Below are positions 10,713-64,000 of a stretch of DNA of 64,000 bases, piece after piece. The first letter of the stretch is position 1; each line of letters begins with the position of its first letter. Where the stretch lies: contig AP021858.1 in the NCBI GenBank assembly GCA_017347465.1, forward strand, positions 1,506,472-1,570,471, read 5' to 3'. Source of the stretch: Candidatus Nitrosymbiomonas proteolyticus. GTDB taxonomy: Bacteria; Armatimonadota; Fimbriimonadia; Fimbriimonadales; Fimbriimonadaceae. Made by a program: the position numbers and the translations under genes. The notes under the pieces are model-generated. The model was not told the DNA's origin, did not search any database, and was given only the letters and a program-made list of their open reading frames with translations.

Positions 10713-10718
10713 AGTGTA
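10713..10718 (-). promoter_or_regulatory. -10 element for a leaderless mRNA (M28 peptidase)
   Basis: TACACT ends 6 nt before the ATG at 10706. The hexamer is the same as the last six bases of the CRISPR repeat. Confidence 0.55.
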
Positions 10719-29634: not shown

Positions 29635-29640
29635 TACACT
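29635..29640 (+). promoter_or_regulatory. -10 element for a leaderless mRNA (wzm)
   Basis: TACACT, 6 nt, then the ATG at 29647. It is identical in hexamer and spacing to the M28 peptidase promoter, and the hexamer is also that of the CRISPR repeat end. Confidence 0.5.
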
Positions 29641-29646
29641 CGATCC

Positions 29647-30504
29647 ATGCTTGCTGAGCTTCGCGAACTGTGGCGGTTTCGCGAGCTACTCTTCAGCCTT
29701 GTCGAGCGCGAACTTCGAATCCGATATAAGAATAGCTTCTTCGGCTTTCTTTGGTCATTGCTCAACCCGCTTATCACAGTAGTCGTGATTACGCTGGTAT
29801 TCAAGAACTTCCTGCGGAACGACACCCCCAACCTAAGCGCGTACATCCTCGCCGCCTATCTGCCGTTCCTGTTCTTTCAGATGGCGGTGATGGACTCGTC
29901 TCAGTCGGTCCTGCTCTCGTTGCAGCTCGTCAAAAAGATATACTTTCCTCGTGAAATCCTTCCGTTAGCGTCGATTCTGAGCAACCTGATCCACCTCTTG
30001 CTCGCGCTGCTGGTATTCGTCGCATACCTCATCGTCATCTACATCGGTGACCCCAGAATCCCCTCGATCCAACCTACGATTCTGCTGCTTCCGATCGTGA
30101 TCTTGATCAACTTGACCTTGGTCGTGGGCATCGGTTTCATCGTCAGCGCGCTTAATACGTTTTATGAGGACGTGAAGTACATCGTGGGCGTGCTGATGTA
30201 TCTCCTCTTCTTTGGCTGCCCTATCTTCTATTTCAGCGAGAACGTGTGGGCGCACTCCTTAAGCCGTGGCGATGGAGGATGGAGTTATTACCTGTATCAC
30301 CTCAATCCGGTCGCGATGCTTTGCACGGCGTACCGCAAGGTGCTGGTCGCGCCGCAGCCCGTCAAAATCGGCGACTCGGTTTATGACCCTCTTCCGTTGG
30401 ATTGGGGCCTGCTTGGGATTGCGGCGGCCCTGTCGTTGGCGCTGATGGTCTTCGGGTACTGGCTTTTCATTCGGCTCAAGTGGAGGTTCGTCGAACGTCC
30501 ATGA
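29647..30504 (+). CDS. wzm: ABC-2 type polysaccharide export permease (Wzm-like)
   Basis: 285 residues, about six membrane helices. The N-terminal amphipathic stretch LVERELRIRYKNSFFGFLWSLLNPL is the hallmark of O-antigen/teichoic-acid export permeases (Wzm/TagG). With the ATPase encoded immediately downstream (ATGA overlap) it forms an exporter of undecaprenyl-linked polysaccharide across the inner membrane. The longer upstream frame is rejected in favour of the ATG at 29647. Confidence 0.9.
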   Translation: MLAELRELWRFRELLFSLVERELRIRYKNSFFGFLWSLLNPLITVVVITLVFKNFLRNDTPNLSAYILAAYLPFLFFQMAVMDSSQSVLLSLQLVKKIYFPREILPLASILSNLIHLLLALLVFVAYLIVIYIGDPRIPSIQPTILLLPIVILINLTLVVGIGFIVSALNTFYEDVKYIVGVLMYLLFFGCPIFYFSENVWAHSLSRGDGGWSYYLYHLNPVAMLCTAYRKVLVAPQPVKIGDSVYDPLPLDWGLLGIAAALSLALMVFGYWLFIRLKWRFVERP

Positions 30505-31253: not shown

Positions 31254-32142
31254 GTACTTTCACCCAAAGAGCGGCCCTTTTGCGAAGCCCTGTCAGAGCG
31301 AATAGGGTCAGGAGACTCGCCAAGCCAAACGCAACGAACCGTGCGAGTGCGCCCAGCCGATCGATCAGCCAGCACAGCAGCGCCGCAAAGGGGCCGTGGT
31401 GGAGTGAAAAGTAGAGCTCCTTGCCCCTGTTATAGAGCGAAACCGCCCGCGCGCGGTTGTCTGCGCTGCTCGCTCCTAGCGAATGGCGAAATTTCGCATT
31501 TGGGACGTAGAGAATCTTGCCCTGCTGCCGAAGGCGGTGGCAAAGTTCGGTGTCTTCGCAATATAGGAAGAATCGCTCGTCGAATCGGGCGGCGCCGGTT
31601 CGGAGCATCAGGCACGCCCCCATCACCTGCTCGACCTCAGACATTTCGGTGAGCCGCCTTGTCGTCCAGTAGGGGGACAAGACTCGCGAGTTAGGGAAGA
31701 GTTTTTCCAGCCCGAGTTGCTCGCAAAAAACGGCCCAGAGTGTGAGGCGGTTTGCGGTCGAGTTCTGTACGTTCCCGTTTGGATCGAGCAGCCTCCCTCC
31801 GGCTGCAGTAACGTCCGGGTCTTGGAAGACCGAAGCGAGTTCTTCGATCGCGCCGGGTTCGGGGGCCGCGTCCGCGTTGAGGATGAGGGTCAGCGAGGTT
31901 GCGGAGGCGTCGAGTCCTTGATTGCAGGCTGTTCCAAACCCCACGTTCTGCGAGTTCGCAATGAGTTGGACCTCGGGATGAGTTTCCGCGACCCAACTCG
32001 CCGATCCATCTTGCGAGTCGTTGTCCACGACGACCACCCTCTGGTCCTTCCCGACCGCCGTCAAACATCGCTCCAACTCGGCCCGCGTGTTGTAGTTGAC
32101 GATCACAACCGTAACGTCGGGTCGGTCGGAAGCGGAACGCAT
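31204..32142 (-). CDS. Family 2 glycosyltransferase (rhamnosyltransferase-like)
   Basis: About 312 residues. GT-A fold: VTVVIVNYNTRAELERCL, VVVVDNDSQDGSASWV, GFGTACNQGLDA, and LILNADAAPEPGA (divalent-metal site, DxA variant). MGACLMLRTGAARFDERFF and FLYCEDTELCHRL follow. It probably adds sugars to the glycan exported by the neighbouring Wzm/Wzt. The ATG at 32142 leaves only 17 nt to the divergent greA. The C-terminal end overlaps wzt by 50 bp. Confidence 0.88.
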   Translation of the reverse strand: MRSASDRPDVTVVIVNYNTRAELERCLTAVGKDQRVVVVDNDSQDGSASWVAETHPEVQLIANSQNVGFGTACNQGLDASATSLTLILNADAAPEPGAIEELASVFQDPDVTAAGGRLLDPNGNVQNSTANRLTLWAVFCEQLGLEKLFPNSRVLSPYWTTRRLTEMSEVEQVMGACLMLRTGAARFDERFFLYCEDTELCHRLRQQGKILYVPNAKFRHSLGASSADNRARAVSLYNRGKELYFSLHHGPFAALLCWLIDRLGALARFVAFGLASLLTLFALTGLRKRAALWVKVLSAPVRGPRTPRDTEQ

Positions 32143-32150
32143 GATACAAT
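32142..32150 (+). promoter_or_regulatory. Extended -10 promoter of greA
   Basis: TGATACAAT matches the extended -10 (TGnTATAAT) with no -35, ending 9 nt before the greA ATG, so the leader is only 2-4 nt. It differs by one base from TGATACACT, the end of the CRISPR repeat. Confidence 0.6.
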
Positions 32151-52320: not shown

Positions 52321-53400
52321 ATGCGAGATCCTGCGAGCATCAACATCCACGAACTGATCGACATTGGCTATCACGAGAGAGCTTCTGACGTTTTCGTCAA
52401 GGGAGGGTCTCCTCCCATGATGAGGCTCCACGCCAAGGTCCAGCCCCTTCCCGGCGAATGGCCCGTCATCGACCCCTACAACGCGCAGCGGATGATCGGC
52501 GGGATCATGACCGAGAAGCAGCGCAGGAAGTTCGAGGACCACATGGAGATGGACCTCGCCTTTAGCGTGGGGGAGACGTGCCGCGTTCGCGCGAACATCC
52601 ACATGCAGCGAGGGACTTGGGGCATCGTCTGCCGTATCATCCCCACCGACATCCTGAACATCGAGCAGTTGGGTCTACCGCCCGTGTTGCAGGAGTTCGC
52701 CAAGATTCGGCAAGGACTGGTCCTTTTCACCGGCCCTACGGGATCGGGCAAGACCACTTCGCTCGCCGCGATCATCGACGTGATCAACTGCACGAGACCG
52801 GTGCATATCGTCACGATCGAAGACCCGCTGGAGTTCGTTCACAGGGACAAAGCCTCTTATATCACGCAACGCGAGGTTGGGATCGACACCGAGGACTTCC
52901 AACCCGCGCTTCGCGCTGTGGTTCGAGAGGCGCCTGACGTGATCTTGATCGGTGAAATGCGCGACGTCGCTACTTTTAACGTCGCTATGCAGGCCGGTGA
53001 AACGGGCCACTTGGTGTTCTCGACCGTCCACACATCGAGCGCTTACGAGACCATGGACCGTATCGTCAACATGTTTCCGCCTCACGAAAAGAACCACTTG
53101 TGCATTCGACTTGCCTCAGCCTTGCGGGCGATCGTCGCGCAGAAGCTGGTTCCGCGAGCGGACGGACTGGGCCGTGTTGCAGCTTGTGAGATACTCGTCG
53201 TAACGCCCACGGTGCAGAAGATCATCGAAGACGGACACTTCAGCGACCTTTACCACGCGATCAACGAAGGCGAGTTCTGGGGAATGCAGACGATGAACCA
53301 GAGCCTGCTGCGGTACGTCAAGGCCGGGGTGATCAGCGAGGAGATTGCGCTGAACTACGCGGGAATTGCTTCTGAACTGAAGCAGATGTTGCGCCGATAA
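52321..53400 (+). CDS. pilT: PilT/PilU-type pilus retraction ATPase, copy 1
   Basis: 359 residues. Walker A FTGPTGSGKTTSLAAII, Asp box VTIEDPLEFVH, Walker B VILIGEMRD, His box AGETGHLVFSTVHTSSAYETMDRI. A cytoplasmic hexameric motor that depolymerises type IV pili. Compared with copies 2 and 3 it has GE rather than AAE before the His box and a KEKNHLCIRLASALRAIVAQKL-type segment. It is first of three adjacent paralogues, separated from the next by only 12 nt. Confidence 0.92.
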   Translation: MRDPASINIHELIDIGYHERASDVFVKGGSPPMMRLHAKVQPLPGEWPVIDPYNAQRMIGGIMTEKQRRKFEDHMEMDLAFSVGETCRVRANIHMQRGTWGIVCRIIPTDILNIEQLGLPPVLQEFAKIRQGLVLFTGPTGSGKTTSLAAIIDVINCTRPVHIVTIEDPLEFVHRDKASYITQREVGIDTEDFQPALRAVVREAPDVILIGEMRDVATFNVAMQAGETGHLVFSTVHTSSAYETMDRIVNMFPPHEKNHLCIRLASALRAIVAQKLVPRADGLGRVAACEILVVTPTVQKIIEDGHFSDLYHAINEGEFWGMQTMNQSLLRYVKAGVISEEIALNYAGIASELKQMLRR

Positions 53401-53412
53401 TTGAGGAGTCCG

Positions 53413-54507
53413 TTGAACCTCAACATCGACGATCTGCTGCGAGACCTGGTGAGCAAGGAGGCCAGCGACCTGCATATCAAGGCAGGCGAGCCGCCCTTCA
53501 TGCGGATTCATGGCGACTTGCAGAGGGTGAACTACCCGGCGCTGTCCGAGGAGGATTCGCGTCAACTCCTCCTTAGCATCTTGAACGAAGAGCGCCGAGA
53601 GCGTCTTTACAGCTTCAAGGAACTGGACATGTCCTATCACGTGTCAGGACTTGCGAGGTTCCGCGTGAATATGTTTTGGCATCGGCATAGCCTTGGAGCG
53701 GTGTTTCGGGTCATTCCGTTTCAGATTCGAACCATCGACGAGCTCATGATGCCGCCGGTCAGCAAGCAACTCGCTCTCTTGCCGCGCGGGCTCATCCTCG
53801 TCACAGGTCCCACCGGTTCGGGGAAGTCCACTTCGCTGGCGGCGATGATCCACCACATCAACACGCACAAGCGATGCCATATCATGACCGTCGAAGACCC
53901 GATCGAATACGTGCATGAGGACTTGGAGAGCATCATCAACCAAAGGGAACTCGGGACCGATACGCACACCTTTGCCGATGCCCTTCGCCACGTCATGCGG
54001 CAGAACCCGGACGTGATCCTCGTAGGAGAGATGCGCGACCTCGAGACGATTCAATTGGCCATCACCGCCGCAGAAACCGGCCACCTCGTGCTCTCGACGC
54101 TGCACACCGTCGATGCCGCCCAGACGATCGACCGGATCGTGGACGTTTTTACTCCAGAGCAGCAGGCGCAGATCCGAACCCAGTTGAGCGTCACGCTGCA
54201 AGCCGTAATCTCGCAGACCCTCGTCCCCACGAAAGACGGCAAGGGACGCGTCGCGGCCTTTGAGGTCATGGTGGCGACCCCTTCGGTTCGGACTCTGATC
54301 CGCGAGGGAAAGACGCACCAGGTGTATCTCGACATCCAGACCGGCGGGAGCTTGGGAATGCAGACGCTCGACGGCTCGCTGATCGAGTTGCTGAAGAAGG
54401 GGCTGATCGACTACGAGCACGCGCTCGCCAAGACTTCCAACCCCGCCGACTTTCAACGACGCTGCATGAATCTTGGGCTTGTGGAGGTGTCCAGTGCTAC
54501 GGCTTGA
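53413..54507 (+). CDS. pilT: PilT-type ATPase, copy 2
   Basis: 364 residues from TTG 53413, chosen because GAGGAG lies 4 nt upstream. An N-terminal PAS-like domain begins DDLLRDLVSKEASDLHIKAG. Walker A VTGPTGSGKSTSLAAMI, Asp box MTVEDPIEYVHED, Walker B VILVGEMRDLETI, His box AAETGHLVLSTLHTVDAAQTIDRIVDVF. The C-terminal part (LVPTKDGKGRVAAFEVMVATPSVRTLIREGK) is the closest of the three to classical PilT. Its stop lies 13 nt inside copy 3. Confidence 0.92.
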   Translation: MNLNIDDLLRDLVSKEASDLHIKAGEPPFMRIHGDLQRVNYPALSEEDSRQLLLSILNEERRERLYSFKELDMSYHVSGLARFRVNMFWHRHSLGAVFRVIPFQIRTIDELMMPPVSKQLALLPRGLILVTGPTGSGKSTSLAAMIHHINTHKRCHIMTVEDPIEYVHEDLESIINQRELGTDTHTFADALRHVMRQNPDVILVGEMRDLETIQLAITAAETGHLVLSTLHTVDAAQTIDRIVDVFTPEQQAQIRTQLSVTLQAVISQTLVPTKDGKGRVAAFEVMVATPSVRTLIREGKTHQVYLDIQTGGSLGMQTLDGSLIELLKKGLIDYEHALAKTSNPADFQRRCMNLGLVEVSSATA

Positions 54508-55702
54508 AGACTTCCTCCGAATGTGCGTCGAGAAGCAGGGCTCCGACGTTCACTTCAAGACCGACGCCGGGAAGATCTACTTGCGGGTCCACGGTGACCT
54601 TGAACTCGTGGAAGGGGTCGAAACGTACAGCAACGAGCAGTTCACCAAGGCGCTCTACGTGCTGCTGAACGACCACCAGATCGAGCGGTTCCAAAAGGAG
54701 CTTGAACTCGACTTCGCGCTCGAAATCGAAGGCGTCGCGCGGTTCCGAGGCAATGCCTACCAACAGCGAGGTTATGTGCAGGCCGCGTTCCGGGTGATCC
54801 CGTACGAAATTCAATCGATGGAAGAGCTCCACCTGCCGGAAGCCTGCTACGACTTCATCGACCGGCCGAGGGGGCTGGTGCTGGTCACCGGGCCTGCCGG
54901 CTCAGGGAAATCGACGACCCTCGCCGCAATGATCGACCGGATCAATCGACAGCAGCCGCTGCATATCGTAACCGTCGAAGACCCGATCGAGTTCGTCCAT
55001 GCCGACGCGAAGGCCCTGATCAACCAGCGGGAACTCGACGTGGACACCAACAGCTTCGCAAACGCCCTTAAGTACGTTTTGCGGCAAGACCCCGATGTCA
55101 TCCTTGTCGGCGAGATGCGCGACCTCGAAACGATTCACCTGGCAATCACGGCTGCCGAAACCGGCCACCTCGTATTTGGCACTCTCCACACCGTCGACGC
55201 GATCCAGACCGTTGACCGGATCGTCGACGTGTTTCCGACCTTCCAGCAGCAACAGATCCGAATGCAGCTTTCGGTCAACCTCGTGGGTGTCCTCTCGCAA
55301 ACCCTCGTGAAGCGCTCCGACAATCGGGGCCGCATCGCCGCGTTCGAAACGCTCGTGGCTACGTCCGCGGTTCGCAATCTGGTCAGGGAGAATAAGACCT
55401 ACCAGATCGGTTCGATGATTCAAACCGGCGCTAGGCAGAAAATGCACACGCTCGATCAATCGCTCGCCAGACTGGTCGAACAGGGCTTGGTCCGACATGA
55501 CGAGGCGCGGTCGCGAGCGAAGGACCCAGGCGAGTTCGACCGATTGGTCGCTCTGGCGCAGGGAAAATCCGCTCACTCGAAGGACAAGGCGCATCATTCA
55601 GGCGACTCCTCCGACGACGACGGCGATACTCAAGACAAGTCGAAGGCCAAAGGGGTGCGGGGCCAGCCTTTCCGTCCCGCCTTTAAGAAAGAGTCCTACT
55701 GA
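54494..55702 (+). CDS. pilT: PilT-type ATPase, copy 3, with charged C-terminal tail
   Basis: 402 residues from GTG 54494 (GGAGG 6 nt upstream). Walker A GPAGSGKSTTLAAMIDRI, Asp box VTVEDPIEFVHAD, Walker B VILVGEMRDLETI, His box AAETGHLVFGTLHTVDAIQTVDRI. It ends in a tail of about 45 residues rich in Lys, Asp, Ser and His (SGDSSDDDGDTQDKSKAKG), absent from copies 1 and 2 and probably disordered. Three functional-looking motors may act on different pili or as PilT/PilU pairs. Confidence 0.9.
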   Translation: MLRLEDFLRMCVEKQGSDVHFKTDAGKIYLRVHGDLELVEGVETYSNEQFTKALYVLLNDHQIERFQKELELDFALEIEGVARFRGNAYQQRGYVQAAFRVIPYEIQSMEELHLPEACYDFIDRPRGLVLVTGPAGSGKSTTLAAMIDRINRQQPLHIVTVEDPIEFVHADAKALINQRELDVDTNSFANALKYVLRQDPDVILVGEMRDLETIHLAITAAETGHLVFGTLHTVDAIQTVDRIVDVFPTFQQQQIRMQLSVNLVGVLSQTLVKRSDNRGRIAAFETLVATSAVRNLVRENKTYQIGSMIQTGARQKMHTLDQSLARLVEQGLVRHDEARSRAKDPGEFDRLVALAQGKSAHSKDKAHHSGDSSDDDGDTQDKSKAKGVRGQPFRPAFKKESY

Positions 55703-56889: not shown

Positions 56890-58044
56890 ATGGACAACCT
56901 TCCGAACCTTTCCCCTGACGAAATCTTGCGCTACTCGCGCCATCTGATTCTGCCGGAAGTCGGGCTTTCAGGGCAGCGCAGACTCAAAGGCGCAAGCGTG
57001 CTGCTCGTCGGGGCAGGGGGACTGGGCTCGCCGGCCGCGCTGTATCTCGCGGCAGCGGGGATCGGCCGCATCGGCATCGTGGATTTCGACGCCGTTGATT
57101 TCACGAACCTGCAGCGTCAGGTGATTCATGGCGAGCCCGATGTGGGGCGATCCAAGCTCGAATCTGCCCAAGCGAAGATCGCCGCGATCAACCCAGGGGT
57201 CGAGGTCGAGCTGCATGAGACCCTCCTGACGAGCGATAACGCGCTGGAGATATTCAGGGCCTACGACGTGATCGCCGACGGAACGGACAACTTCCCGACG
57301 CGGTACCTGGTGAACGATGCCTGCGTGCTGCTCGACAAGCCCAACGCCTACGGATCGATCTTCAGATTCGAAGGGCAGGCAACCGTGTTTCACCATCAAG
57401 GCGGGCCTTGCTACAGGTGCCTCTATCCCGAGCCGCCCCCGCCCGGAACCGTGCCCTCGTGCGCCGAAGGGGGCGTCTTGGGCGTTTTGCCGGGCGTGAT
57501 CGGGCTGATCCAAGCCACCGAGGCGGTGAAGATCATTCTTGGAATCGGCGAGACGCTTTCGGGGAGGCTCCTGCTGTACGACGCCCTCAGCCTCAGGTTT
57601 CGTGAACTGAAAATCGCCCGCGATCCGGACTGCCCGGTGTGCGGCGACTCACCGACGGTCCGCCAGCTCATCGACTACCCCTCTTTCTGCGGCCTGCCTA
57701 ACTACGGCTCCGTCCCCTCCCACTTCGACGACGAGATCGAACCTGCCGAACTGAGGTCCCTGCTCGATTCGGGGGGCGGGTTCGTGCTGCTCGACGTTCG
57801 GGAGCCTCATGAGTTCGAGATCAACCGGATCAAGGGCTCGCGGTTGCTGCCTCTGGGCGATCTGCCCGCGAGGGTTCATGAACTGGATTCGGCGGACGAA
57901 ATCGTGGTTTATTGCCTGATGGGCTCGCGGAGCGCCGACGCGTGCAGGTTTCTCCGCGCGGCGGGTTTTCAGAAGGTGCGCAACCTCCGCGGCGGCATCC
58001 GCTCCTGGATCGACTCCATCGAACCGGGGATGGTGAAGTACTGA
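56890..58044 (+). CDS. MoeB/ThiF-type adenylyltransferase fused to a rhodanese domain (MoeZ/MOCS3-like)
   Basis: 384 residues. The adenylylating domain has GAGGLGSPAALYLAAAG, DFTNLQRQVIHGEPDVG (Arg finger region), IADGTDNFPTRYL, and two zinc CxxC pairs (CYRCLYP and CPVCGD). The C-terminal rhodanese domain has its active Cys in VVYCLMGSRSAD. Such fusions activate and sulfurate small carrier proteins (MoaD, ThiS, CysO). It could supply molybdopterin sulfur for the nxr-like enzyme, but that is inference. The CRISPR array begins 54 nt after its stop. Confidence 0.92.
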   Translation: MDNLPNLSPDEILRYSRHLILPEVGLSGQRRLKGASVLLVGAGGLGSPAALYLAAAGIGRIGIVDFDAVDFTNLQRQVIHGEPDVGRSKLESAQAKIAAINPGVEVELHETLLTSDNALEIFRAYDVIADGTDNFPTRYLVNDACVLLDKPNAYGSIFRFEGQATVFHHQGGPCYRCLYPEPPPPGTVPSCAEGGVLGVLPGVIGLIQATEAVKIILGIGETLSGRLLLYDALSLRFRELKIARDPDCPVCGDSPTVRQLIDYPSFCGLPNYGSVPSHFDDEIEPAELRSLLDSGGGFVLLDVREPHEFEINRIKGSRLLPLGDLPARVHELDSADEIVVYCLMGSRSADACRFLRAAGFQKVRNLRGGIRSWIDSIEPGMVKY

Positions 58045-58097
58045 TTCCCGTGCCCCACGTGGGCGGAGGGCGTTCCTGGCTTTAGCCGGGGACGGCC

Positions 58098-58792
58098 TCC
58101 GGAGGCGGTCCGCAGACTCTTTTCTGATACACTTGACACATCTGATACGCTGTCGTATCATAGTCGGAGGCGGTCCGCAGACTCTTTTCTGATACACTAA
58201 GCAAAACACAATCGACATCGACGCCCTCGTCGGAGGCGGTCCGCAGACTCTTTTCTGATACACTCAACTCGTGTGCCAATGACGTATTATTATGGTCGGA
58301 GGCGGTCCGCAGACTCTTTTCTGATACACTGGCGGGTTCCTCATCACGCCACAAATAGAAGTCGGAGGCGGTCCGCAGACTCTTTTCTGATACACTGGTC
58401 AACATCGCACACCTCGACGCGGCAGGGTCGGAGGCGGTCCGCAGACTCTTTTCTGATACACTTGAGCGATTGAAGCGTCCTCTCTCTGGGGTGTCGGAGG
58501 CGGTCCGCAGACTCTTTTCTGATACACTACAAGGAGGCGGTCGTCCGATTCGACTCCGGTCGGAGGCGGTCCGCAGACTCTTTTCTGATACACTCGCTTC
58601 TGCCGCAATGGCGTTTCGACATGAGTCGGAGGCGGTCCGCAGACTCTTTTCTGATACACTGGCGTGATCGACGCAGAGTTCACGGCAGAGGTCGGAGGCG
58701 GTCCGCAGACTCTTTTCTGATACACTGTCGCCGTCCGCCCACAGCCGCACGCGCAGGTCGGAGGCGGTCCGCAGACTCTTTTCTGATACACT
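58098..58792 (+). CRISPR. Type II-C CRISPR array: 11 repeats of 36 nt, 10 spacers
   Basis: Repeats start at 58098, 58163, 58229, 58295, 58361, 58427, 58493, 58559, 58625, 58691 and 58757. Each begins GTCGGAGGCGGTCC and ends TTTTCTGATACACT. Repeats 2-11 are identical; repeat 1 differs in its first two bases. Spacers 2-10 are exactly 30 nt; spacer 1 is 29 nt. Orientation + is set by the tracrRNA anti-repeat, whose changes keep pairing only if both RNAs are plus-strand. The repeat end TGATACACT is an extended -10-like element, as in Neisseria II-C arrays that start crRNAs inside each repeat. The degenerate repeat 1 marks the old end, so new spacers probably enter on the cas2 side. Confidence 0.97.
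58133..58161 (+). promoter_or_regulatory. Promoter-like element inside the first CRISPR spacer
   Basis: TTGACA (58133-58138, its first T being the last base of repeat 1), exactly 17 nt, then TATCAT (58156-58161). Predicted start is about 58168, inside repeat 2, reading through the array. The same spacer holds a perfect inverted repeat TGATACG-CTGT-CGTATCA. By sequence this 'spacer' looks more like a leader or promoter than captured DNA. Confidence 0.45.
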
Positions 58793-58805
58793 ATAAGAGA
58801 ATCAG

Positions 58806-58832
58806 CCCCGGCGAGAGCCGGGGTTCGATTTT
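58806..58832. terminator. Hairpin between array and cas2, probable terminator
   Basis: A 7-bp perfect stem CCCCGGC/GCCGGGG with a GAGA tetraloop (58806-58823) is followed by TTCGATTTT on the plus strand. It lies 13 nt after the last repeat and 23 nt after the cas2 stop read from the other side, so it may end both the array and cas transcripts. Confidence 0.6.
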
Positions 58833-58845
58833 CCGGGCGCCAGAA

Positions 58846-59211
58846 CTAGAAAAACGACAATTGGTCGGGCGGTTTGGGCTGCTCTTTGCGACTTTCCCCA
58901 AAGAACGTCTCGATCCGCGAGAATTGCTTGTCTGTGATCAGCCCGATGCTGACCTCGCCCTCGGGCGGGAGGTACTTTCGGATGCGCTCCTTGTGAACCT
59001 GGGCGTTCTCGTCGCTGTGGCAGGGACGCGCGTAAACGCTGTACTGAAGCTGGAGATAGCCGCGCTTCAGGAGTTGTTTTCGAAACTCCCGATAGTTGCG
59101 CTTGTCCTCCTTGGTCAAGACCGGGAGGTCGAACATCACCAGTACCCACATGAGCCGATAGGGACTTACGGGCGGCGGAGCGGTATGACGAGTTTTCTTC
59201 CTTCGCCGCAT
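58846..59211 (-). CDS. cas2: CRISPR-associated endonuclease Cas2
   Basis: 121 residues. The ferredoxin-like Cas2 core begins MWVLVMFDLPV (metal-binding Asp after the first strand) and continues YREFRKQLLKRGYLQLQYSVYARPC. It bridges two Cas1 dimers during spacer integration. The ATG at 59211 has AAGGA close upstream and adds a basic 20-residue N-terminal extension (MRRRKKTRH); an internal ATG at 59151 would remove it and the 46-nt overlap with cas1. Last of the cas operon. Confidence 0.93.
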   Translation of the reverse strand: MRRRKKTRHTAPPPVSPYRLMWVLVMFDLPVLTKEDKRNYREFRKQLLKRGYLQLQYSVYARPCHSDENAQVHKERIRKYLPPEGEVSIGLITDKQFSRIETFFGESRKEQPKPPDQLSFF

Positions 59212-60077
59212 ATTCCTTCTCTTAAGGATGCGGCATATCTTGCGAGCGCTGGTTCGATTCCCGCAGGTTTACCAGCTATATACAGGTCCAAAACTGTTAA
59301 CTTCAACAGGTCCGCCCTTGTTTCTTTCGCCAGCGACCCGTCTTCGGGCAAGTCGGGCGCCCTATCGAAGACGTATTGATCGACGACCGGGCGCAACGGT
59401 TCGATTGCGTCGTCGGCGAGGTTGAAAGGGTTTGCAGGACCCCGGTGCATTAGGCCGAGGGCGGGATGGAGTCCGGTGCCCACGATCGCGCGGGCCACCA
59501 TAGCCCTGACGATGGCATACCCGTAATTGAGCGCGGCGTTCACCCCCGGCAGGTCGCGATCTCGCATGAACCCTTGTCCAAAGAGAGCTGGGAAGTAGTC
59601 GGCCGCGGCGCGAGCTTCGGCGTTTTCCGAATCGCCGGACTTCACCTTCGCTGCCAGTTCGTCAAGGTACTTTGCGACCGACTTAGCCTCGCGGTCCTTG
59701 GGATTGCAGATTCGTAGGGTTTCCGCTTGCGCTTTGATCTTGGATTGCACGATCTGTTTCCAGAGTTGCTTTTTCTTGGGCACGGAGCACTCGGCCTGCT
59801 CCCGTACGATCTTGGCGTGGAGCGCATTGGCTTCGAACGGCATGACGCAACTCAAGGGGAGGTGGCGCTCATCGCAAAACACGACGGCGACGTTGGCCTT
59901 AGAGAGGGCGACGACCAACTCTTGCGTGAGGGCGGTCCCGTGCGACTCAAGGATGAGTACCGCAAGGTCCTCGATCGGTACACGCCCGACCTCTTGACCC
60001 TCCTGACTGATCGAAAGTTGCTCGAGGTCCTTCTTGAGCCAGGAGGGGTTGGAGACGGTTACGATTCTATGGGGCAT
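59166..60077 (-). CDS. cas1: CRISPR-associated integrase Cas1 (type II)
   Basis: 303 residues. N-terminal beta domain (HRIVTVSNPSWLKKDLEQLSI), then VLILESHGTALTQELVVALS. The catalytic helical domain has probable metal ligands Glu154, His204 (GTGLHPALG) and Asp222 (NLADDAIEPLRPVVD), as in type II Cas1. It integrates new spacers with Cas2. The start overlaps the cas9 end by 11 nt. Absence of csn2 and cas4 makes the locus type II-C. Confidence 0.96.
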   Translation of the reverse strand: MPHRIVTVSNPSWLKKDLEQLSISQEGQEVGRVPIEDLAVLILESHGTALTQELVVALSKANVAVVFCDERHLPLSCVMPFEANALHAKIVREQAECSVPKKKQLWKQIVQSKIKAQAETLRICNPKDREAKSVAKYLDELAAKVKSGDSENAEARAAADYFPALFGQGFMRDRDLPGVNAALNYGYAIVRAMVARAIVGTGLHPALGLMHRGPANPFNLADDAIEPLRPVVDQYVFDRAPDLPEDGSLAKETRADLLKLTVLDLYIAGKPAGIEPALARYAASLREGICGEGRKLVIPLRRP

Positions 60078-63000
60078 CCGTGGGTGTTAGCTCTCCAAGG
60101 GGGGAAGCTGAGAGTTTCCTTCCAAGCTTGGCGAGGGAATCTCCGCGAATCCTCAATGACTCGTGTTCATTAGCAGTACGGGCGTCGTTTGGAGGGCGGA
60201 GCCAGATGCAGTCAGACGTGGTCGAAGCGACCCGCATGGGTTGGTCGTTGAATTCAATACTTTCGTCTTTGGATATGCACATGAGTAGAGTTTCTCCCGA
60301 CCGAACTTTCAAGCCGTAGGGCGAGCCCTTGCCGTCTTCCCTGGATCGCAGAGCCCTTGCAGCGTCAATCATGGTCACAACACGATGAACCAATCTCCCT
60401 TTGGGCGACCGAATGATCTCCGCATGATGGTTGCTCTCCGGTGCCACATATCGGTGGCTTGAGTCCTTTTCTCCCGGAATGTCAATGTTGATTGTGGAGT
60501 CGTCGCTTCGTTTGGGATGACGAACTCGCACAGTCGCAACCTGCATTTTTTGCCCCCTCCCATTTAGGATTTGGACATTTCCCGAACCAAACGCCTCCTC
60601 CCAATCTCCCATGGAAAGTCGCTGAAGGAGAGCGCGCTTCAGGTCTGGGTCGTACACCCTCTCTTCGATCTGCTTCCGCGTTTCTTCGAGCTTCGGCTTC
60701 TTCGCTTCAGGCTTCAGTAGTTCCTTGACCGAGATCCTCCGCACGTAGAGAATCGTTCCATTGAGCTCCTTTCGCCCGTAGTAGCTTCCATCGTGAAGAG
60801 CCCCCCGAATCCCTTTATTTACGGCGTGAGAGGTGATCGCCTTGTTAATCACCGTTCGGATGAGCGCTTTGTCAGGCTTGTAGAGGTTGGCTTTACTCTT
60901 GGGCCGATGCTCCTTCGGTCCACGGTAAGCCTCGACCGCCGCCTTGAACCTCTTAGGGTTCGTCAATGCGACGACGATAGCGTCGATAGCATGATGCCGG
61001 TGGTCGTTGCGGTTCTTTCGCTTGATCTCCTCTGCTTCGGCCCCGTCCCCGTTTTCGTTCGCCTCCTCGATCGCCTTAACCTCCTTCTTTGTCAGAAGCG
61101 GAGGCAAGAGGTCGTTCAACTCCCACACACGCCGGAGAAACCCAGTTGCCTGTCCGTTCGTGGGCCAGACAGTCAGCTTGTCCTCGCCCCACTCGATACC
61201 CGCCATCTTGAGCTGCTTGAGGTACTTGACTGCTTCCTTCGTTATGTACCGCGTGTCCTGCAACTGTCGGGCAACGAAGTCGTCATCCACCTCTTCCATT
61301 TGGAACTTCCTCAGCAGGGCCCGGTTGCCCGTCTTCTTGATGACGGCAAGTCGGTCCTTAGCCTCCTTGGTTCCCGGTTTCCATACTTCCGCCGGTAGTC
61401 GATCACCCTTTCGAGCGTTACAGGCTCGGTGAGCGAGGACCTTGTTCGAAATCGAATCGTCGCCACTCCGTCGTATGGGGAGCACATGGTCGATGTCGGC
61501 GGTATCGTTGAGGAGGTCCGTGCTGCCGATGTTTTCGAGGCAATAAGGACATATCTCGCGCTGCTGTAGCCAGAGCCTGTACTTTATCTTGTCCTTTCGC
61601 GAGACCTGGCTGCCCGCTTGGCCTGGCTGCGCCCTGAACCACTCCTCGGCCTGTTTGTTGAGTTTCTTATTGTCGCTGGTGAGCTTCGAGACTCGATCTC
61701 GGTCGGCCTTGGACTCCTTGAGTTCAGTTGCCAACTCCAACCGAATAAGATCAGGCATCCCGTATTTCTTGATGAGGGCGTTGACGACCTTTCGCAGTTC
61801 CGTGAGAGCCCGATGGACCCTTGGATTCCGCAGGGGCGGGGGCGGGGGCAATTCCTCGCACTTGCCTTCTGGTTGCAATTCGGCTCGCTGTAGGTCCTTG
61901 GCCTCGTGAGGGAGCAGCCCGTTGAGCATGTCCTTGTGGAGCCGCCGCATGGCTTGGATCGAGAGGTTCGTCGTGCTGGTCGAAAACGACTCGCAGAGGA
62001 CGTCGAACGCCTGGCGTTTGGAAAGGGGATACAGGGGATTGTGCTTCGACTTTGGCTTTTGCAGTAGCTTGAAAAGGTGGATCGGATCGCCGAAGTACGT
62101 CTCGAGGTCCTGCATAAAATCCAGTTGAGCATGTTCGACATCTTTCGTCAGGTGGAGATCGGCACGCCACTTCTCCCCGAAGACCTTCTTCAGGGCGATT
62201 TCGGTGGTGTTGCCTTGAATGCCATTGGGGCTGCCTTTTGACCCCTCAATCGTGAACCTGCCAGCCCTGCCCACTCTGAGCCTCTCGCGAATCTTCGGCC
62301 ACGTAAGAAAGGGGGTCGATTGGAGTTCATCCGCCAGCGGGACAAACTCTTCGGGAGTCAGTTCCCGCACGTCATCTCCGACGACTAGTCTGAGGTTGCG
62401 TAGTGTTTCCAATATTCGGTAGCGATGGGAGACCCAATGCCCGCGCCGAGCAACGGGTTTCGCCGAACCCAAAAGTGAACAGGCGCGAAATTGCCTGAGA
62501 GCTTCGTTTGAACTTACTCCCGCAACGTATCCCCGCTTGGGTAGCAAGACTCGAAACGGCTTGAGGGGTCTCTGTTCGAACGCAGATCTGACGAGGGACT
62601 TGTTGGCGGTCGTGAGAATGTCGGGATAGAACTGGGACTGGAAGTCCCAAATCCTGTCGAACTCGTCCTCCAGCCACTCCCGCGAAAGCCGATTGACCTT
62701 GCGTTTTTTCTGACCTTCTGGCAACGAATGAAGGTAGCGTCCGATGGTTGAAAGGCCTGACCTCTCCCACCTTTCTTTAAGGGCATTGATCGCGTCAAGT
62801 GTCTTTCTGGGATCATCGCCAACGTCAACTTGCAAAGCTACATCAGACTCGTTTCCATCCACGACTTGGCTGGCACTCCGCGCATCCGTTCCTGCGATCT
62901 GAGCGCTCATGGTGTCTGTCTCTTCATCTACGTCGACGGATTCGTCGGTTTCCCGTACCCACTGGCGAAGCTCTTCGTCGCCCGCAAAGGGCGAACCGGG

Positions 63001-63459
63001 CGCGATCAGGTCTGCCAACTTGGCCTTACGGTTGCTACGGAAGCCCCGTCGCTGCAAGATGTGTTGGAGAGCCCGGCCGATTTCAAAGAGCTCGACCTGT
63101 TCACCGATAGCTCGGCTTCGAATTTCGTAGGGATTGAGGAATCTGCCTTCCTTCTTCGGGCTCCACCGCCCGAGTACCCGGTCACGCTCGACTGCATCTT
63201 CCGGTAGCAGTCCGATGATCGTCAACGCCCTTTCCACGTTCCGACGGCGTTTGGCGCTCCGGTCGATTGTGCGCCGCTGTCCCCGAAAACCACGACGCTT
63301 CGCGTTAAGCGTGATTTTGGACTTCTCATCGACGACCCCGCTGAACACCCGGCTGTTCGCCCAAAGGACTTCGAGGATTTCGTCGTCGTCATTTACTTCC
63401 AGAAGCGCGCCGCCCACCGAAGCTTCGCCCAGGTCCAATCCCAATACCAGTCTTGACAT
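60067..63459 (-). CDS. cas9: CRISPR-associated endonuclease Cas9 (type II-C, 1130 residues)
   Basis: RNA-guided DNA nuclease, compact II-C size. Order: RuvC-I with Asp9 (LVLGLDLGEASVGG); Arg-rich bridge helix about 52-76 (NAKRRGFRGQRRTIDRSAKR); REC lobe including LQHILQRRGFRSNRKAK and an acidic stretch at about 160-216; RuvC-II with Glu575 (IRLELATEL); HNH with Cys637/Cys640, His658 (ADIDHVLPI), Asn681 (HRACNARKGD); RuvC-III with His823 and Asp826 (NDHRHHAIDA); then a PAM-interacting C-terminus. All catalytic residues are present. GGGGGA lies 7 nt before the ATG, and TGATACGAT within the divergent anti-repeat could be its -10. First gene of cas9-cas1-cas2. Confidence 0.98.
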   Translation of the reverse strand: MSRLVLGLDLGEASVGGALLEVNDDDEILEVLWANSRVFSGVVDEKSKITLNAKRRGFRGQRRTIDRSAKRRRNVERALTIIGLLPEDAVERDRVLGRWSPKKEGRFLNPYEIRSRAIGEQVELFEIGRALQHILQRRGFRSNRKAKLADLIAPGSPFAGDEELRQWVRETDESVDVDEETDTMSAQIAGTDARSASQVVDGNESDVALQVDVGDDPRKTLDAINALKERWERSGLSTIGRYLHSLPEGQKKRKVNRLSREWLEDEFDRIWDFQSQFYPDILTTANKSLVRSAFEQRPLKPFRVLLPKRGYVAGVSSNEALRQFRACSLLGSAKPVARRGHWVSHRYRILETLRNLRLVVGDDVRELTPEEFVPLADELQSTPFLTWPKIRERLRVGRAGRFTIEGSKGSPNGIQGNTTEIALKKVFGEKWRADLHLTKDVEHAQLDFMQDLETYFGDPIHLFKLLQKPKSKHNPLYPLSKRQAFDVLCESFSTSTTNLSIQAMRRLHKDMLNGLLPHEAKDLQRAELQPEGKCEELPPPPPLRNPRVHRALTELRKVVNALIKKYGMPDLIRLELATELKESKADRDRVSKLTSDNKKLNKQAEEWFRAQPGQAGSQVSRKDKIKYRLWLQQREICPYCLENIGSTDLLNDTADIDHVLPIRRSGDDSISNKVLAHRACNARKGDRLPAEVWKPGTKEAKDRLAVIKKTGNRALLRKFQMEEVDDDFVARQLQDTRYITKEAVKYLKQLKMAGIEWGEDKLTVWPTNGQATGFLRRVWELNDLLPPLLTKKEVKAIEEANENGDGAEAEEIKRKNRNDHRHHAIDAIVVALTNPKRFKAAVEAYRGPKEHRPKSKANLYKPDKALIRTVINKAITSHAVNKGIRGALHDGSYYGRKELNGTILYVRRISVKELLKPEAKKPKLEETRKQIEERVYDPDLKRALLQRLSMGDWEEAFGSGNVQILNGRGQKMQVATVRVRHPKRSDDSTINIDIPGEKDSSHRYVAPESNHHAEIIRSPKGRLVHRVVTMIDAARALRSREDGKGSPYGLKVRSGETLLMCISKDESIEFNDQPMRVASTTSDCIWLRPPNDARTANEHESLRIRGDSLAKLGRKLSASPLGELTPTDAP

Positions 63460-63481
63460 TGCTGTTCCCCCGTGATATAGT
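63453..63481 (+). promoter_or_regulatory. Strong sigma-70-type promoter of the tracrRNA
   Basis: A perfect -35 TTGACA (63453-63458), exactly 17 nt, then TATAGT (63476-63481) preceded by TGA, giving an extended -10 as well. The start site is predicted at about 63488, one base before the anti-repeat. The -35 overlaps the cas9 start codon (63457-63459) on the opposite strand. Confidence 0.85.
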
Positions 63482-63487
63482 CTCTAT

Positions 63488-63627
63488 CGTATCAGAAAAG
63501 AGTCTGCGGGTTGCATTCGATAAGAGCTCTGATATGCGTATCGAAGCTCGCAGGCAATACGCGAAAGCGTAGCCAAGTCAATGGTCTATGGGCCGAACTA
63601 AAGCTCTTCCTTCGCGGAGGAGTTTTT
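63488..63627 (+). ncRNA. tracrRNA of the type II-C system (about 140 nt)
   Basis: The anti-repeat is 63489-63521: 21 bases from GTATCAGAAAAG on match the repeat complement exactly. The other 12 positions have six changes, five of which keep G-U pairing with the crRNA repeat and one of which is an A-G mismatch. Then come a hairpin at 63524-63549 (GAGCT/AGCTC and TGATA/TATCG arms, TGCG loop), a hairpin at 63558-63571 (TACGC-GAAA-GCGTA), a possible short hairpin at 63583-63594 (GGTC/GGCC), and a terminator at 63604-63627. It pairs with crRNA for processing and loads Cas9. Divergent from cas9. Confidence 0.93.
63604..63627 (+). terminator. Intrinsic terminator of the tracrRNA
   Basis: A 7-bp stem CTCTTCC/GGAGGAG (one G-U pair) with loop TTCGC is followed directly by five T residues (63623-63627). 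Confidence 0.85.
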
Positions 63628-63738
63628 AGTTTGTGATGGCCAGCCGATTTCCCCTAAACCCCCGCAGAGGAGGGCTGCTTTTTGCCCGGTGGGGTAAACA
63701 GCAAAGGAACGGTCGACGCTTGAAATCAGGAGGCGACG

Positions 63739-64000
63739 ATGAGGCGAGAGAGAACGATTCTGTACCTGTTGGCGGGTGGGTTTCTTCTGACCGCGATCGA
63801 GGTGCGATATCTGCACCGCGAGGTCTTGGGGGAGCACTGGCAAGCTTGGGTTCCTGTGGCGTACGGCGCGCTGGGGACGGCCGTAGCCGTCGTTGCGGCC
63901 GCTTCGGCCAAGGCGCGAAGGCTGGCTGCGGGCGTGTTCGCGCTCGGCGTGGTGGCGGGCCTGCTCGGTTTCTACCTTCACACCGAGGGCAACCCCGCGG
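63739..64000 (+). CDS. Small membrane protein, 3' end beyond the window
   Basis: Open from the ATG at 63739 to the window end (87 codons visible). AGGAGG at 63728-63733 lies 5 nt upstream, an ideal ribosome-binding site. Hydrophobic segments: ILYLLAGGFLLTAIEV, WVPVAYGALGTAVAVVAAA, and LAAGVFALGVVAGLLGFYL, separated by charged turns, so at least three membrane helices. The family is not recognised; the remainder is off the edge. Confidence 0.7.
   Translation, partial: MRRERTILYLLAGGFLLTAIEVRYLHREVLGEHWQAWVPVAYGALGTAVAVVAAASAKARRLAAGVFALGVVAGLLGFYLHTEGNPA

Follow-up and report, generated by a model that had tools for sequence, protein, structure and literature searches.

Does a type II-C CRISPR array draw its guide RNAs from one long precursor, or does each repeat start the guide that follows it? 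Spacers in II-C systems are added at the cas2-side end of the array, and each repeat has been reported to carry its own promoter (PMC12080349, PMC6008519), with further examples in F. columnare (PMC8092290) and in II-C systems in general (PMC12080349), and with experimental precedent in PMC3656092 and PMC8092290. Here, we consider this question for an array at positions 58098–58792 of a 64,000-nucleotide stretch of Candidatus Nitrosymbiomonas proteolyticus DNA (the window), and we conclude that each guide RNA is most likely started on its own, within its spacer, by the box that ends the preceding repeat.

A complete type II-C locus with an array transcribed opposite to its cas genes

The locus is a complete type II-C system, with cas9, cas1, and cas2 accompanied by a tracrRNA bearing an anti-repeat. 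By match to NCBIfam type II models, we identified cas2 (58846–59211; TIGR01573, E = 2.9e-18), a type II cas1 (59166–60077; TIGR03639, E = 1.4e-76), and a cas9 encoding 1130 aa (60067–63459; TIGR01865, E = 2.3e-144), all on the minus strand. The ORFs between 58846 and 63459 leave no room for a further cas gene such as csn2 or cas4, and the window holds the first 541 bases upstream of cas9. The tracrRNA lies upstream of cas9 on the plus strand (63489–63635, with the anti-repeat at 63489–63521 and a terminator hairpin at 63600–63626), preceded by a promoter of the form TTGACA-N17-TATAGT with TG before the −10 (63453–63481, plus strand). A search of positions 57000–64000 against Rfam gave no match, neither to tracrRNA nor to anything else. 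Elsewhere in the window, three adjacent ORFs at 52321–55702 resemble PilT-type ATPases by sequence (Walker motif GPTGSGKTT/GPTGSGKST).

The anti-repeat also fixes the strand of the array. It pairs with repeat nt 1–33 with one mismatch, scoring 70 against the plus strand of the repeat and 54 against the other; because its G–U pairs would be lost on the other strand, we take the crRNA strand to be plus, with transcription of the array (plus) running opposite to that of the cas genes (minus).

All 11 repeats close with an extended −10 box

On the plus strand, the array consists of 11 repeats of 36 nt (GTCGGAGGCGGTCCGCAGACTCTTTTCTGATACACT) separated by 10 spacers, of which spacer 1 has 29 nt and the other nine have 30 nt. 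Ten repeats are identical across all 36 nt, and the sole mutated one is the first (58098–58133), which deviates at nt 1–2 only (TC for GT) and has its 3′ end intact. As spacers join at the cas2-proximal end, this first repeat, at the transcription-upstream end, is the oldest (the "extra" repeat) and has no guide before it.

The preliminary description of this DNA held that the repeats end in an extended −10, and its coordinates prove exact: TGATACACT closes 11 of 11 repeats, at 58125–58133 in repeat 1; at 58190–58198, 58256–58264, 58322–58330, 58388–58396, and 58454–58462 in repeats 2–6; and at 58520–58528, 58586–58594, 58652–58660, 58718–58726, and 58784–58792 in repeats 7–11 (all plus strand). 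A chance match exactly at the repeat end is unlikely given the low density of such boxes in the host (per position, 1.2e-4 for TGNTANNNT and 3.0e-3 for TANNNT). No clear base preference is apparent at spacer nt 5–8 over 829 spacers, and we thus see no sign there of selected start bases.

The same box stands ahead of apparently leaderless host genes

A point against promoters in the repeats is that TACACT lies one or two changes away from the best −10 box and is not accompanied by a −35 element. The DNA ahead of host genes is informative here. The earlier claims that TACACT serves as a −10 at 10713–10718 and at 29635–29640 agree with what we find: between the first box (minus strand, 10718–10713) and the ATG of a peptidase gene stands ATCGTA, and between the second and the ATG of an ABC permease gene stands CGATCC, so that both have the layout of a leaderless gene, a feature the preliminary description did not point out, with the box exactly 6 nt before the ATG. 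Likewise, TGATACAAT is present at 32142–32150, as had been claimed, 9 nt ahead of the ATG of a greA-like gene.

To put these cases on a quantitative footing, we used 464 kb of host DNA (the window together with 20 stretches of 20 kb each). Counting from the first ATG of long ORFs, TANNNT-N6-ATG occurs 20 times, compared with about two cases per neighbouring distance, which places TANNNT exactly 6 nt before ATG roughly 10-fold above background without a −35. A wider count, allowing up to three start candidates per gene, yields 27 cases, with A at box position 4 in 17, G at −13 in 18, and G at −14 in 14, most of them without a TTGACA-like element. These boxes look like those of leaderless genes whose transcripts would start 7 nt after the box; indeed, many host genes appear leaderless in this sense, with TANNNT exactly 6 nt from the start codon and no −35 (e.g., 29635–29649 and 10718–10704).

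Since a TANNNT box without a −35 is enriched 6 nt before ATG in this host, such a box would be sufficient, and it predicts starts at spacer nt 7, leaving guides of 24 nt. The starts had previously been placed 6–7 nt into the spacer; the 6-nt interval between box and start in host leaderless genes favors the second of these positions over the first.

Repeat ends are conserved across type II-C systems

We compared 62 distinct 36-nt repeats at Cas9 loci of the same phylum and of other phyla, with orientation assigned from the 5′ end and a few boundaries fixed by hand. A TANNNT end is found in 61 of the 62 (the exception, L132, ends in TGATAT) and on the reverse strand in 1 of 62; the true share is slightly lower than 61/62, as the orientation rule left two arrays outside the set, L050 without the box and L122 with a 46-nt repeat ending in TACAAC. 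Within the set, T31 and T36 are invariant, A32 occurs in 61/62, A34 in 59/62, and G29 in 46/62, where G29 corresponds to the G at position −14 in an extended −10. The repeats differ freely in their middle part, and their ancestry is partly common, so that they do not represent 62 independent events. In L050 (4943–6177), a II-C array of the same phylum, 19 repeats end in TGACACAGC and the −10 box is absent.

The oldest repeat as a test of promoter function against pairing

The extra repeat offers a natural experiment in which promoter function can be told apart from tracrRNA pairing: serving neither crRNA nor integration, it would need its promoter for spacer 1 but not its 5′ half. Of 41 arrays for which the contig includes the start, 17 have a mutated first repeat, with about 107 mismatches in nt 1–18 and 6 in nt 19–36, and TANNNT is kept in 16 of these 17. 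In a search that treated both ends alike, 11 arrays have a 3′ remnant, placed one spacer ahead of the first repeat that is nearly intact, and two have a 5′ remnant, L082 (which has a 3′ remnant too) and L154. A remnant of the last 9 nt, sought one unit upstream of an intact first repeat, was found in a single array. Losses do occur: T31 is gone from the extra repeat of L119, and T36 is gone, together with other bases of the 3′ half, from an old repeat of L154. The block kept in extra repeats (nt 19–36) also exceeds the box (nt 28–36), so that elements other than the box may be retained as well.

Mutations in extra repeats of II-C arrays have been found to be biased to the first 15 nt and were read as silencing an extraneous crRNA (Feussner et al. 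2025, PMC12080349). The arrays described there resemble those considered here both in this bias and in having a hairpin upstream of the array; the difference lies in emphasis, with the extra repeat treated there as a block on the extraneous crRNA, and its unchanged 3′ half used here as a promoter test. Both views of the extra repeat can be true. In the present array, a hairpin predicted at 58064–58101 (plus strand; fold of 58060–58133, z −3.2) lies upstream of and touches repeat 1, and could block an extraneous crRNA. More broadly, predicted hairpins (58064–58111) join the upstream DNA to the start of the extra repeat, and in several relatives (L039, L042, and L058) strong inverted repeats likewise stand just ahead of the first repeat.

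Together, the boxes of host leaderless genes, the TANNNT ends of 61/62 repeats, and the retention of the 3′ half in extra repeats support the earlier reading that each repeat carries its own promoter. Because TAnAnT with G at −14 recurs across phyla and extra repeats keep the promoter half, we also think it rather probable that the repeat-end promoter is a near-universal, selected feature of type II-C rather than a peculiarity of a few pathogens.

Other accounts of array transcription and of the repeat end

Transcription might instead begin near 58168, driven by a promoter within spacer 1, and yield a long precursor cut by RNase III with the tracrRNA, leaving the repeat boxes weak or idle. The candidate, which the preliminary description had not mentioned, is TTGACA-N17-TATCAT at 58133–58161 (plus strand; the initial T also closes repeat 1). 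It matches 11 of 12 consensus bases and is the best sigma-70-like match in the region, where 0.2 would be expected in shuffles at a looser cut-off. The host does seem to use TTGACA: across the 464 kb, TTGACA-N16-18-TANNNT is present eight times, whereas words composed of the same letters average 1.1, and TTGACA occurs in the tracrRNA promoter as well. However, this promoter sits in a spacer and is therefore no inherited element of the system, spacer 1 itself cannot be transcribed from it, and it leaves unexplained both the TANNNT of 61/62 II-C repeats and the 3′ retention in extra repeats. We consider it unlikely that the guides arise in this way. The spacer-1 promoter and the repeat promoters may nevertheless work together, and a long precursor may coexist with separate starts; since the spacer-1 promoter could make one, finding some long precursor would not alone refute the repeat promoters. 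Spacer 1 also contains the palindrome TGATACG-CTGT-CGTATCA (58134–58162), inside the sigma-70-like promoter, perhaps a phage operator; a comparison of spacers 1 and 10 with viral contigs gave no exact match.

It is also possible to regard the TANNNT end as a recognition site of the Cas1–Cas2 integrase, with its likeness to a −10 secondary: II-C spacers enter 3′ of the last repeat, next to cas2 (PMC6008519, PMC12080349), and the DNA just downstream of that repeat has conserved features. In many of the 62 II-C arrays, as in the present one, the 45 nt that follow the last repeat form a more stable fold than their shuffled versions (mean z −3.1 over the 62, with 58% of values below −1.5; for nt 200–245 the mean is 0.1, with 10% below −1.5). 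At the loci from other phyla, counting from the end of the repeat, A prevails at both nt 12 and nt 13 (79% and 95%) and T at nt 34 (74%). We nonetheless judge this account of the repeat end quite improbable, as the first repeat, farthest from integration, keeps its 3′ half in 16 of the 17 arrays where it is mutated, and as G29 and the T-A-n-A-n-T pattern match −10 preferences, with the same box standing before host genes. The two roles can coexist; because spacer addition in II-C takes place at the 3′ side, Cas1–Cas2 could be a second constraint on the repeat end, though not on that of the first repeat.

In the present array, a strong hairpin directly follows the last repeat (58797–58833) and is itself followed by a T-rich stretch, an arrangement that is terminator-like and that in II-C stands on the side of spacer addition. 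Given that position, the hairpin after the last repeat (58793–58840 here, and common in II-C) could act as a leader signal, as a terminator, or in both ways.

Finally, conservation of the repeat end solely through pairing with the anti-repeat, which reaches repeat nt 33 here and includes nt 31–33 in about 90% of loci, is barely credible and we reject it: among 48 loci with a confident anti-repeat, T36 never varies though it is paired in only half, and the sequence of nt 16–29 varies despite pairing in at least 90%.

A model for guide production, and its relation to known systems

We regard as highly likely, on the strength of these sequence comparisons, the arrangement as a whole: a II-C array with a −10 box and upstream TG in every repeat, starts at about spacer nt 7, pairing with tracrRNA, and 3′ processing. 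The 3′ end of each repeat would supply the box and its TG (TGATACACT), from which RNA polymerase would start near nt 7 of the spacer that comes next; the primary transcript would then consist of a guide of about 24 nt and the next repeat, which would pair with the tracrRNA made from 63489 onward. The 3′ end of the crRNA would form thereafter, probably through RNase III, as in C. jejuni. New spacers would enter at the cas2-proximal end (58792). The preliminary description had further predicted RNase III-independent crRNAs, which does not necessarily follow: the 3′ ends of C. jejuni crRNAs are still produced by RNase III (PMC3656092).

The closest parallels are found in three II-C systems. That of C. 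jejuni (PMC3656092) shares an extended −10-like repeat end (GGTAAAAT there), one promoter per unit, a tracrRNA, and cas9-cas1-cas2; Dugar et al. (2013, PMC3656092) mapped its crRNA start to nt 5 of the spacer, in contrast to the nt 7 predicted here, where the box is TGATACACT, the host is GC-rich and of another phylum, and the evidence is genomic. In Neisseria meningitidis, as cited in PMC7038990 and PMC3656092, every repeat likewise initiates transcription internally, by means of an extended −10 located where the repeat ends; the middle of its repeat is unrelated to that of the present array, whose promoters are predicted from sequence. The last nine repeat bases of Clostridium cellulolyticum H10 also resemble an extended −10, and its array also runs opposite to the cas genes (PMC7038990); there, the evidence includes RNA sequenced in E. 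coli, and the crRNAs contain 23–26 nt of spacer (PMC7038990).

The arrangement is thus already known in II-C systems, and Candidatus Nitrosymbiomonas proteolyticus is a new example of it, which adds a member of the Fimbriimonadaceae to the hosts with promoters in their repeats. Judging from the comparison across phyla, the repeat end might reveal the direction in which II-C arrays are transcribed. If repeat-end promoters are indeed general, a II-C array would amount to a row of single-guide genes, in which every new spacer brings its own promoter.
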